Under the pieces are notes generated by a model. The model was not told the origin of the DNA, did no database searches, and worked only from the letters and a program-made list of their open reading frames with translations. Positions 46,862-50,590 of a stretch of 64,000 nt of DNA are shown here, piece by piece. The position numbers and the translations under genes were made by a program. Position 1 is the stretch's first letter; the number at the start of each line of letters is the position of its first letter. Location of the stretch: positions 186,001 through 250,000 of the forward strand of contig NZ_VFOU01000002.1 of assembly GCF_006716305.1 (NCBI RefSeq), in the 5' to 3' direction. This DNA comes from Enteractinococcus coprophilus. GTDB lineage: Bacteria > Actinomycetota > Actinomycetes > Actinomycetales > Micrococcaceae.

Positions 46862-48967
46862 ATGATGGCAACCACTCACACCGCACATCACTCCACGTCA
46901 ACCAAGACAACACCGACCCATTGGGGCCGCCGTCTGAGTTTAACCGCGACGCTTATTATCGGTGCGCTGGGACTCAACGCATGCGGTCCCAATGTACCCG
47001 ACCCAACCGAGGCCGCCCAGCAATTCGCCGACCAACTGGCGACGGAGGATCTCATCGGCCTCACTGACCTGGCCCTCACGGCTGACTCGATGGACCCGGC
47101 TGCGCTCGCAGACGCTGTCGAAGAACTCGAGCGATTCTCGCTGACCGTTCACCTCGATTCGGCCGAGGTGGATGACTCCGATGGTGACGAGGTCACAGCA
47201 ACCGCGAACTACACGGTGACCTGGGATCTCACCCCCGGGAACGACGAAACAGAAGAGCAACAAGGCGACGACGAGAAAACCTCGGAAACCTGGTCGTACC
47301 CAACGCAGGCACACCTGGTGTGGGATGACGAAACGCAAGCCTGGCAGCCGCACCTAACCGCCAGCACGCTGGTGCCCGGACTGGCCGATGGCGGGCGCGT
47401 GGACGTCGTCGTTGATCAAGCCCAGCGCGGCACGATACGCGATGGCGAAGACAATGCTCTGGCCATGGAGCGTCCGGTACAGCGTATCGGCATCGATAAA
47501 TCCCACGTGGTCCAAGCGTTATCCCAGGGTGGCGCCGAGCCGACTGCAGCGGATATTGAAGAGACCTTGACCGAATCGGCCACCGACCTTGCCGAAGCGC
47601 TGGATCTCGACCCGGAAGCCTTCGTGGATCGCACCCTGGCGGCAGGCGAGCGCGCGTGGGTCGAATTCATCGTGCTGCGCGATGACGAGGACACTGACAT
47701 CCCCATGGATGACATTGCGCAAATCCAGGGTGCCATGACCATGGAAGACACGGTGGTCCTGGGCCCGTCACGCACCTTTGCCCGATCACTGCTGGGCACG
47801 TATGGGGAACCCAACGCGGAACAAATCGAAGCCTCTGACGGGGAATTTACCGCGGGTGTCCCCACCGGGCTGACTGGACTGCAGCGCATGTACAACGAGC
47901 AGCTGGGCGGTACAGACGGGTTGAATATTTCCGTCGACAATGCAGAAGCCACCCACGAACCCGCATCCGGCGAAGAGGTATCCTTTCAACGCGACGTCGT
48001 TGACGGCCAGTCCATAACAACCACGCTGCATAGTGACGTCCAACAGCTGGCCGAAGAGATGATCGACGACGCCGAGGTACCCGCCGGACTGGTGGTGGTC
48101 CGTCCTTCCGATGGGCATATCCTGGCTGCCGCCGACGGTCCGGCCGAGACCAGTTGGCCGCTGGCTATCACGGGGACTTACCCGCCGGGATCGACCTTCA
48201 AAATCGTCACGGCGCTTGCGATGCTGCGTAACGGCATGACCCCGGAGACTACGGTCAGCTGCCCACAAACCATGACGATCGATGGTACGGAGATCTCGAA
48301 CTTCGAAGGGTATCCGTTCGAGTACCTCGGAGAGATTACCCTGGCCGATGCGATCGCCCAATCTTGTAACACGAGTTTCGTGAGCCAGTGGGAAGAACTT
48401 GCCCCAGAAGACATCCATGATGCTGCGGTGGCGCTAGGCCTGGTGGAAGATCCCGTGACCGGTTATACCGGGGCATTTCTTGGCTCGGTGCCCACAGATG
48501 TCGAAGGAACCCAGCACGCCGCCGGACTCTTTGGTCAGGGCCTGGTGCAAGCCTCGCCCCTGGGCATGGCCACGGTTGCGGCCTCGGTTGCTGCCGGGCA
48601 AACCGTCCCCCCGGTGCTGGTGACAGATCCGCAGGTTGATCCGGCCCAAAACGAGAACCTCCCCGGCACCGCGCCGCTGACCGAAGACGAAGCCGCCACC
48701 CTGCAGGAACTCATGGCCGGGCCGGTGGAACACGGGACCGTCCCCATTCTGCAAGAGGTCCCCGGAGCCCCCGTGTATGCCAAGACCGGCACCGCAGAGT
48801 ACATCGACGACGGCGAGGACCTAGCCCACACCTGGATCATGGCCACCCACGGCGATCTAGCAGTGTCGCTATTCTACACCGAGGGCTTTGCCGGCGCCCA
48901 GACGAACGGCCCGGTCCTCCAGGAATTTCTCACCGAACTCGAAGCCATCATCCCCTCGGCGGGCTAA
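46862..48967 (+). CDS. Lipoprotein penicillin-binding protein (transpeptidase)
   Basis: A 701-residue cell-wall enzyme. The lipobox LNAC near residue 40 follows a hydrophobic signal; most class B PBPs instead have an uncleaved helix, so this is unusual. An N-terminal region (about 45-380) resembles the NTF2-like MecA_N and dimerisation domains of PBP2a-type enzymes. The transpeptidase domain has all three motifs: SxxK as STFK (Ser444, Lys447), SxN as SCN (501-503) and KTG at 641-643. ATG 46862 (or 46865) is used. No partner cell-division or wall gene is nearby. Confidence 0.9.
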   Translation: MMATTHTAHHSTSTKTTPTHWGRRLSLTATLIIGALGLNACGPNVPDPTEAAQQFADQLATEDLIGLTDLALTADSMDPAALADAVEELERFSLTVHLDSAEVDDSDGDEVTATANYTVTWDLTPGNDETEEQQGDDEKTSETWSYPTQAHLVWDDETQAWQPHLTASTLVPGLADGGRVDVVVDQAQRGTIRDGEDNALAMERPVQRIGIDKSHVVQALSQGGAEPTAADIEETLTESATDLAEALDLDPEAFVDRTLAAGERAWVEFIVLRDDEDTDIPMDDIAQIQGAMTMEDTVVLGPSRTFARSLLGTYGEPNAEQIEASDGEFTAGVPTGLTGLQRMYNEQLGGTDGLNISVDNAEATHEPASGEEVSFQRDVVDGQSITTTLHSDVQQLAEEMIDDAEVPAGLVVVRPSDGHILAAADGPAETSWPLAITGTYPPGSTFKIVTALAMLRNGMTPETTVSCPQTMTIDGTEISNFEGYPFEYLGEITLADAIAQSCNTSFVSQWEELAPEDIHDAAVALGLVEDPVTGYTGAFLGSVPTDVEGTQHAAGLFGQGLVQASPLGMATVAASVAAGQTVPPVLVTDPQVDPAQNENLPGTAPLTEDEAATLQELMAGPVEHGTVPILQEVPGAPVYAKTGTAEYIDDGEDLAHTWIMATHGDLAVSLFYTEGFAGAQTNGPVLQEFLTELEAIIPSAG

Positions 48968-48970
48968 TAG

Positions 48971-49746
48971 TTAGTGCTCGCCAACGGCGCGTGCGTGGCG
49001 CAGCGCCGTTGCGGTCCCCAGCTTCCAGGGCTCACCGTGGCCAGGTAGCAGAGTTGTGGCCTGATGTGTCTCGAGTGTTTCCAGAGCTTGCATCGCCTCT
49101 GCGGTGTCCTGGGTCGCGGCAGAAGCAACGATTTGGGGTCCGGTTTTGCCGGTATAGGGGTCCAGTGTCACCAGCGCATCACCGGTGAGCATCACGTCAC
49201 GGTGTGGCAGATATAGCATGCAGTGCCCACGAGTATGACCCGGAGTGTGCAGCGGAATCGGGGCGCCGGGCACCGGGAGACGTTCTAGGCCATCAAACGG
49301 TATCGTCCGCGAGACACCGCGTACTCGCAGCGCGCCAGCCACGGCCATACTGCCCATCACCGGCAGCGAGCGCGGGTGAAAGAACGGGTACAAGAACCGA
49401 TTGGTCTGGGGTGTGTAGCGATACGGGTGCGCGGCCAAATCAGCATCTGCCCGATGGACGTAGACGTCGAGGTTCCATTCCCGTTGCGCCCGGGCTGCCA
49501 GTCCGACGTGATCGAAATGGCCGTGGGTTAGCACGAGTGCCCGGAGCTCATCGGGTCTTCGTCCAATGGATTCCAGTGCTTCGTGAAGCAATGACCACAT
49601 TCGTGGCAGCCCTGCATCCACTATCGTGACGCCGTCGTCATCTTCAATGAGATAAAAATTGACGTGCGCACGAGTGGACGTGCGCACGAGTGGACGTGCG
49701 CACGAGTGATGGCGTGGATACCATCGGCAACATTTGACCGAATCAT
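48971..49746 (-). pseudogene. MBL-fold metallo-hydrolase with frame-breaking 16-bp repeats
   Basis: The metallo-beta-lactamase core is complete: FYLIEDDDGVTIVDAGLP, the HxHxDH zinc motif LTHGHFDHVG, TPGHTRGH and TGDALVTLDP. The strong ribosome binding site AGGAGGGG points to ATG 49746 (MIRSNVADGIHAITRAH). Three tandem copies of a 16-base unit at 49661-49708 follow, and the ATG frame then runs into a stop before reaching the core. With one copy (or four) the ATG frame would join the core directly. In the present sequence the core is open only from a weak TTG at 49783. So the gene is disrupted or switched off; the core may still be made at a low level. Confidence 0.75.
49661..49708. repeat. 16-bp tandem repeat, 3 copies, inside coding region
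   Basis: GACGTGCGCACGAGTG repeats exactly at 49661-49676, 49677-49692 and 49693-49708. The unit length is not a multiple of three, so each copy-number change shifts the reading frame of the MBL gene. Confidence 0.95.
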
Positions 49747-50014
49747 GACCCCTCCTATTGAGCCGAGCATAAAGATACGTCAAAGAGCCTCAAGTGTGGA
49801 GCTGGAATCGACCCTACCCTGCACCGACATTGAGCGACACCATTTGTGCGACGACTATTTCGCGGTGTTCAACGATCAGTGTTGAGAAGAAGGCAGGGTG
49901 CAACGCAGTGGATATGCACGCCGCGGTAGAAGGTAACACGGGGTGGGTGGGCTCTACCCCTGGACAACGCGACTCAGTAGCCTGGAGACACCGAGTCCCC
50001 ACGGAAGGATGGTT

Positions 50015-50590
50015 ATGACCGCGCACGAGCCCAGCACGCAGGAACAGGATGTCACCCATATCCTGACCGTAGACCATCAGGATATGTTGGATCTGATCGC
50101 AACCATCCAGCAGGCCACCACCGTTGAACAGCGTCGTGATGCCGCCGATACAGTGATAGCAGAAGTCATGCGGCACTCAGTCGCCGAAGAGATGCATGTT
50201 TATCCAGCCATGGAGAAATATCTGCCCAATGGTGCTGAAGAAGTTGAGCACGATAAGAAAGAGCACGACGAACTGGTCGAGGTCATGAAACGTTTAGAAG
50301 ACGTTGACGCTGACTCTGAACAGTTCATGAGTTTGGTCCGGCAATTCGAAGAGAAATTACGGCACCATGCCAGTGACGAAGAAGACGACCAGTTCCCGGA
50401 ACTCCGCAATCACATTCCGTTGGAAGAGCGCATCGAACTCGGGCGGAAAGTCGAACAGGCGAAATCGATGGCACCAACCCGGCCACATCCCAACGCTCCG
50501 CATTCGGAACTTTTTCACAAAACAGTCGGAGTAGGAGTGGGTATGGTGGATCGACTTCGAGACAAGCTTACGGGTCGCAATACACAGTGA
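50015..50590 (+). CDS. Hemerythrin HHE-domain protein
   Basis: A 191-residue protein with an HHE cation-binding domain: TVDHQDMLDLIA, VMRHSVAEEMHVYPAM, HDKKEHDELVEVM and LRHHASDEEDDQF supply the His, Glu and Asp ligands of a di-iron site. Such proteins bind oxygen or nitric oxide and often help in iron or redox sensing. The C-terminal tail (Pro/His-rich, then Gly/Val-rich) is typical of actinobacterial members. ATG 50015 follows GGAAGG (50003-50008); an in-frame ATG at 50009 is an alternative. It neighbours the stress genes katE and a Crp-type regulator several kb away. Confidence 0.88.
   Translation: MTAHEPSTQEQDVTHILTVDHQDMLDLIATIQQATTVEQRRDAADTVIAEVMRHSVAEEMHVYPAMEKYLPNGAEEVEHDKKEHDELVEVMKRLEDVDADSEQFMSLVRQFEEKLRHHASDEEDDQFPELRNHIPLEERIELGRKVEQAKSMAPTRPHPNAPHSELFHKTVGVGVGMVDRLRDKLTGRNTQ

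Follow-up and report, generated by a model that had tools for sequence, protein, structure and literature searches.

A palindromic 16-bp tandem triplication puts an MBL-fold hydrolase gene of Enteractinococcus coprophilus out of frame, probably as a young null allele with latent reversibility

In the 64,000-nucleotide stretch of the E. coprophilus genome analysed here (the window), three exact copies of a 16-bp unit separate the start codon of an MBL-fold hydrolase gene, ATG 49746, from the rest of its reading frame. With a probability of roughly two in three, we regard this as a recent loss-of-frame mutation, that is, a young null allele with latent reversibility, and not as an evolved switch. 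We propose that a 16-bp segment in the 5′ coding region of the gene, which is dispensable and present once in the genome, first became duplicated and later triplicated in the lineage of this genome. As the sequence shows, ribosomes starting at ATG 49746 are diverted by the additional 32 bp to a short frame that leads nowhere, and the tandem palindromes are predicted to add a hairpin to the mRNA. On these grounds the three-copy allele is most likely off or nearly off. Since the direct repeats are exact, loss or gain of a unit could restore the frame at a low rate, and the allele would thus be latently reversible without selection as a switch. The features of the locus are collected in Table 1.

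Table 1. Features of the hydrolase locus (positions in the window)
Feature	Position	Strand	Basis
Penicillin-binding protein (PBP) gene, flanks the hydrolase gene	46862-48967	+	
MBL-fold hydrolase frame 3′ of the repeats, 229 codons plus stop (48973-48971), intact, zinc-ligand motifs retained	48971..49660	-	profile match and alignment
Longest present ORF in the hydrolase frame, from TTG 49783, 270 aa	48971..49783	-	ORF list; N-terminus is the ancestral 5′ end read out of frame
Frame of ATG 49746-49744, 41 codons, stop TAG 49623-49621	49621..49746	-	sequence, translation
Repeat copy 3, immediately 5′ of the conserved Asn codon of the hydrolase	49661..49676	-	sequence and Tandem Repeats Finder
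Terminator-like hairpin from the palindromes of copies 2 and 3, 10-bp stem, 6-base loop, then TCAATTTTTA	49663..49688	-	terminator scan
Repeat copy 2	49677..49692	-	sequence and Tandem Repeats Finder
In-frame GTG born of the repetition, 238-aa product, without Shine-Dalgarno match	49685..49687	-	start-site check
Repeat copy 1, first in gene direction	49693..49708	-	sequence and Tandem Repeats Finder
Shine-Dalgarno sequence AGGAGGGG	49749..49756	-	sequence; script matched AGGAGG
Hemerythrin-domain gene, flanks the hydrolase gene on the other side	49943-50590	+	

An earlier note on this DNA had described a 16-bp unit repeated exactly three times in the 5′ coding part of the gene. Tandem Repeats Finder confirmed it at 49661-49708 with a period of 16, 3.0 copies and 100% matches to the unit GACGTGCGCACGAGTG, and gave it the top score among the 15 rows for the window. 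Every unit contains a 10-bp palindrome, CGTGCGCACG, which the note had not mentioned. Its description of the start region was also correct: the Shine-Dalgarno sequence before ATG 49746 is strong, and the three units separate this ATG from the hydrolase frame. Its own frame ends after 41 codons at a TAG which shares one base with GTG 49621 of the hydrolase frame. Because 32 mod 3 is 2, ATG 49746 joins the hydrolase frame at 1, 4, 7 ... copies, in agreement with the claim that one or four copies would be in frame. The ancestral reading frame is interrupted, as in a pseudogene, and an intragenic unit that is not a multiple of 3 makes the copy number set the frame, as in a contingency locus.

The 5′ ends of relatives were compared at 41 loci, 40 of them distinct (L001 and L012 are one contig and were counted once). 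The weak matches L008 and L009, and the weak or partial ones L018-L039, of which L018 is the relic in the congener G005 described below, were left out of this count; the 5′ ends of the wider family were drawn from 30 loci. In 37 of the 40 distinct relatives a start codon lies exactly 18 codons 5′ of a conserved Asn, the same spacing as would be found here with one copy, and the three exceptions, L005, L006 and L007, start at other positions. The common N-terminus, M-x4-VADGVH-x-ITHAxVN, agrees with the product of ATG 49746 as far as the first unit. The ancestral N-terminus proposed in the earlier note, i.e., the product of this ATG with a single unit, is thus upheld by the spacing kept in these relatives. 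Homologues that begin as the present open frame does, which would have spoken against it, were sought and none was found among the 40. None of the 40 carries a comparable tandem repeat at the 5′ end, where the longest run was 14 bp with a period of 6, in seven rows. When a two-unit query was searched with up to 3 mismatches, the array was found in one of nine genomes of the genus, the window's own, and in none of the eight congeners. From the shared one-unit spacing, the lack of a comparable repeat in the relatives and this distribution, the extra 32 bp are derived; they are new and confined to their own genome among those compared. A 30-base probe made of a repeat copy and its flank had no match among viral contigs.

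As the native start, TTG 49783 was rejected, since the N-terminus that it gives occurs in none of the 40 distinct relatives and results from reading the ancestral 5′ end out of frame. The present gene might still be translated from TTG 49783 (270 aa), from GTG 49687 (238 aa) or by re-initiation at GTG 49621 (216 aa), so that the repeats would have remodelled the N-terminus and not knocked the gene out. All three codons stand in the open hydrolase frame, the overlap of TAG and GTG is a translational-coupling arrangement, and the downstream frame is under purifying constraint, as shown below. However, a Shine-Dalgarno match was found at TTG 49783 alone, and it is GAGG with a spacing of 4 as compared with AGGAGG at ATG 49746. 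A weak promoter-like pair seen by eye, TTGAGG-16-TATGCT, would start the transcript 3′ of TTG 49783; at its threshold, the promoter scan found nothing at the locus. In a model of the orthologue L001 (mean pLDDT 86), residues 2-7, 10-15, 18-25 and 28-32 are core strands. GTG 49621 matches residue 32 and GTG 49687 lies near residue 10; according to the model, core strands would be missing from both shortened products. We consider an alternative start improbable, though slightly less so than the other rivals discussed below.

No second copy of the hydrolase was detected in its own genome at E ≤ 0.001. Among the eight congeners, G006 and G007 (the latter only 71% complete) have orthologues with 72 and 70% identity, respectively, in the gene order PBP, MBL, hemerythrin, HrpB as in the window, and at a different location G008 carries a full-length homologue that is more distant (43%). 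A full-length hydrolase was not found in the other five, G001-G005, of which G002 is 88% complete. HrpB and PBP are separated by about 40 bp with nothing between them in G001, G002 and G003, and in G004 3.7 kb without any MBL match separates HrpB from a PBP fragment. By HrpB (84%) and PBP (79%), G005 is the nearest congener; what is left there of the MBL gene is a fragment of some 82 residues, interrupted by a TAG and now on the other side of HrpB. The absence of a full-length copy from five of eight congeners and the truncated relic in the closest one show that the hydrolase is dispensable in the genus. In the wider family, a match at E ≤ 1e-50 was obtained in 107 of 295 genomes, with no internal stop among the matches listed.

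Several other observations were made around this locus. The PBP gene of the window encodes PBP_dimer and Transpeptidase domains, and has a MecA_N match that is weak, with 22.5 bits where the cut-off is 22. Beside the MBL relic of G005, part of the region for the HrpB N-terminus is present again, decayed and spread over three frames (L072:2268-2580 and L072:4027-4272), which is a local duplication in decay. Degraded PBP pieces are present at the locus in G008 (L079:1147-1510), and the PBP gene of G004 is split across contigs C49 and C25, with stops. The plasmid search returned one distant homologue of the hydrolase, L142, on the Dietzia kunjamensis plasmid pDK2035-77. There a hemerythrin-domain gene lies directly 5′ of the homologue, and the two genes are divergent neighbours in the window (48971-50590), G006 and G007. 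The hemerythrin-domain protein and the MBL hydrolase may be functionally linked.

We looked for perfect tandem runs, with a period of 9-200 and two or more copies, in 864 kb of the same genome, consisting of the window and 40 stretches of 20 kb, or about 30% of the 2.88 Mb in six contigs. Twenty runs were found, six of them with a period of at least 12, as compared with 5 runs in a mononucleotide shuffle of the same 864 kb; 400 kb of G006 as a control gave 6 runs, one with a period of at least 12 and none above 2.5 copies. The array at 49661-49708 is the sole one of at least 2.5 copies in the 864 kb. The idea that the genome is rich in such arrays was therefore rejected. Perfect two-copy duplications of 29, 23 and 18 bp were seen elsewhere in the genome (L087:9097-9154, L105:7752-7798 and L087:17245-17280, respectively); the first two lengths are not divisible by 3.

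These data bear on the main suggestion of the earlier note, a contingency locus. It would imply frequent slippage and populations mixed for ON (1 or 4 copies) and OFF (2 or 3 copies) states, kept by selection. An exact, frame-disrupting repeat right after the start codon, with a palindromic, hairpin-forming unit that is not a multiple of 3, and a downstream frame that is intact and not accelerated are what such a locus would show. An evolved contingency locus is nevertheless not supported. Typical contingency arrays are longer than three copies, and this one is not a long hypermutable array. The tract is not kept in the congeners or the 40 distinct relatives, no sister array exists in the 864 kb, the gene is missing or a relic in five of eight congeners, and the family appears to have a soluble-type hydrolase fold. 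Like the mod repeat of Haemophilus influenzae, the array lies towards the 5′ end of an ORF and has a unit whose length is not divisible by 3. Classical simple-sequence loci are long arrays of short units, as in mod, where AGTC is repeated more than 30 times according to a survey of frame transitions (PMC3711429), whereas here we have 3 copies of 16 bp that are not kept in relatives. The same survey gives as signs of phase variation tandem repeats near a frameshift and clusters of at least 5 frame-shifted relatives (PMC3711429); by these signs the repeat is present here but the case is a singleton. In the literature consulted, nothing bore directly on the rarity of contingency loci in actinobacteria, which the note had also asserted. 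Taken together, we regard a switch maintained by selection as unlikely.

The unit palindrome CGTGCGCACG was missing at the equivalent site in all five relatives compared. Its presence in the unit and absence from the closest relatives make it likely that the array arose when replication stalled at the palindrome hairpin and the strand then slipped. The base 5′ of the array differs from the last base of the unit, and the base 3′ of the array differs from its first base, so no flanking microhomology is available to account for the first duplication. For this step, hairpin-provoked template switching or Ku end joining would be possible, and the later gain of a unit would need slippage alone. The genome has NucS and a Ku gene, and no match to MutS was found in it. 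NucS is unable to correct indels, as stated in a review (PMC8228993). The ends of two contigs (C2:21-4437 and C4:4419-1; L100, L117) have 4.4 kb in common in opposite orientation, with a nucS gene in each, probably because the contig ends overlap or because the sequence is an inverted repeat.

The hairpin at 49663..49688 requires at least two repeat copies. It was the one site found by the terminator scan in 601 bp (mean of 0.3 in shuffles), and none of 200 shuffles folded as well as the RNA of 49650-49712 (z = -4.71). An intrinsic terminator at this position is a prediction only; the T-run begins four bases past the stem. A further reading is built on this hairpin, in which a chance palindrome seeded the array and the copy number now sets both the frame (open at 1 or 4) and, from two copies, a hairpin before the T-run. 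The hydrolase would then be off at two levels in a MutS-less actinobacterium, and a phase switch would have been caught at birth, with its array not yet grown. We think it has little chance of being correct.

Slippage of the ribosome by −1 in the TTTTT run 3′ of the repeats would, by arithmetic, also lead back into the hydrolase frame. By eye, no canonical slippery heptamer was seen there, and the hairpin lies upstream of the TTTTT run, so this explanation is left as a weak one.

The age of the break was estimated from the downstream frame, in which the 229 codons contain no further stop. Stop-creating mutations are expected at 16.5-18 per substitution per site, which limits the neutral age to less than about 0.17-0.18 substitutions per site (5% level). 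The two neighbour genes, HrpB and PBP, are at a synonymous distance of about 1.3-1.6 from their counterparts in G005. The triplication thus appears, from these sequence distances, to be younger than the split from the nearest congener. Between the downstream frame and those of G006 and G007, pN was 0.17-0.20 and pS 0.69-0.79; as pS is saturated and some distances are infinite, dN/dS was not used as numbers. No acceleration of the downstream frame was detected in six comparisons by Tajima counts (13-16 unique to this genome against 16-21 unique to the relative; chi2 0.13-1.48). The relaxed constraint or additional lesions expected of a pseudogene were not observed downstream, which is compatible with a very recent event. 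An intact and unaccelerated frame means either that the gene was broken recently or that the frame remains in use. It is the strongest point for a switch or an alternative start, and it fits a very recent break equally well.

A further possibility is an error of assembly or a change acquired by the culture that was sequenced, as the array is known from a single assembly. Assemblers collapse exact tandem copies more often than they invent them. The 4.4-kb overlap of C2 and C4 contains no substitution, and its only two gap columns are confined to the very end of the alignment; in that part, then, the consensus is good. We give this possibility a low weight.

The 270-aa frame matched Lactamase_B PF00753 (E 2.5e-29, 103.1 bits against a cut-off of 22.7). 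In an alignment of eight sequences, THGHFDH and the His and Asp columns conserved further on, which we take to be the zinc ligands, are invariant except for GH replaced by AH in some rows. The profile score and these motifs place the protein among the MBL-fold hydrolases (Lactamase_B). It scored below the NCBIfam cut-offs for subclass B3 metallo-beta-lactamase (50.8 against 240 bits) and for the N-acyl homoserine lactonases AidB (49.3/360), AttM (46.2/390) and AiiA (45.5/375 bits). The nearest folds are TTHA1429 (2zo4) and TTHA1623 (2zwr), whose identity to the hydrolase is 24%, and no function was transferred from them.

In its way of working the locus most resembles the intragenic tandem duplication of the pneumococcal capsule genes (cap3A, cap8E/wchA, tts), where an exact tandem duplication within the frame reportedly inactivates the gene; an exact intragenic repetition that breaks the frame is found here as well. 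Intragenic tandem duplications reportedly control phase variation in these genes, as the titles of studies by Waite et al. from 2001 and 2003 have it. Acapsular isolates with a tandem duplication within wchA are described in a further paper (PMC4022640). The present case differs in that the unit is 16 bp, palindromic and triplicated and the gene is an actinobacterial hydrolase gene. In another actinobacterium, Mycobacterium tuberculosis, glpK undergoes reversible frameshifts by homopolymer slippage. It is likewise an actinobacterial case of frame loss, there reversible, but the repeat is a homopolymer and not a long-unit tandem array.

The locus is also a warning for annotation, since a gene caller would accept the 270-aa frame from TTG as normal although its N-terminus is spurious. 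A frame-breaking tandem triplication is ordinary in kind, yet this is a clean and dated case, with a clear ancestral state and an intact downstream gene. The locus would be convenient for asking at what rate 16-bp palindromic arrays change their copy number in a NucS-positive actinobacterium without a MutS match, and it also bears on whether contingency loci start as such accidents.
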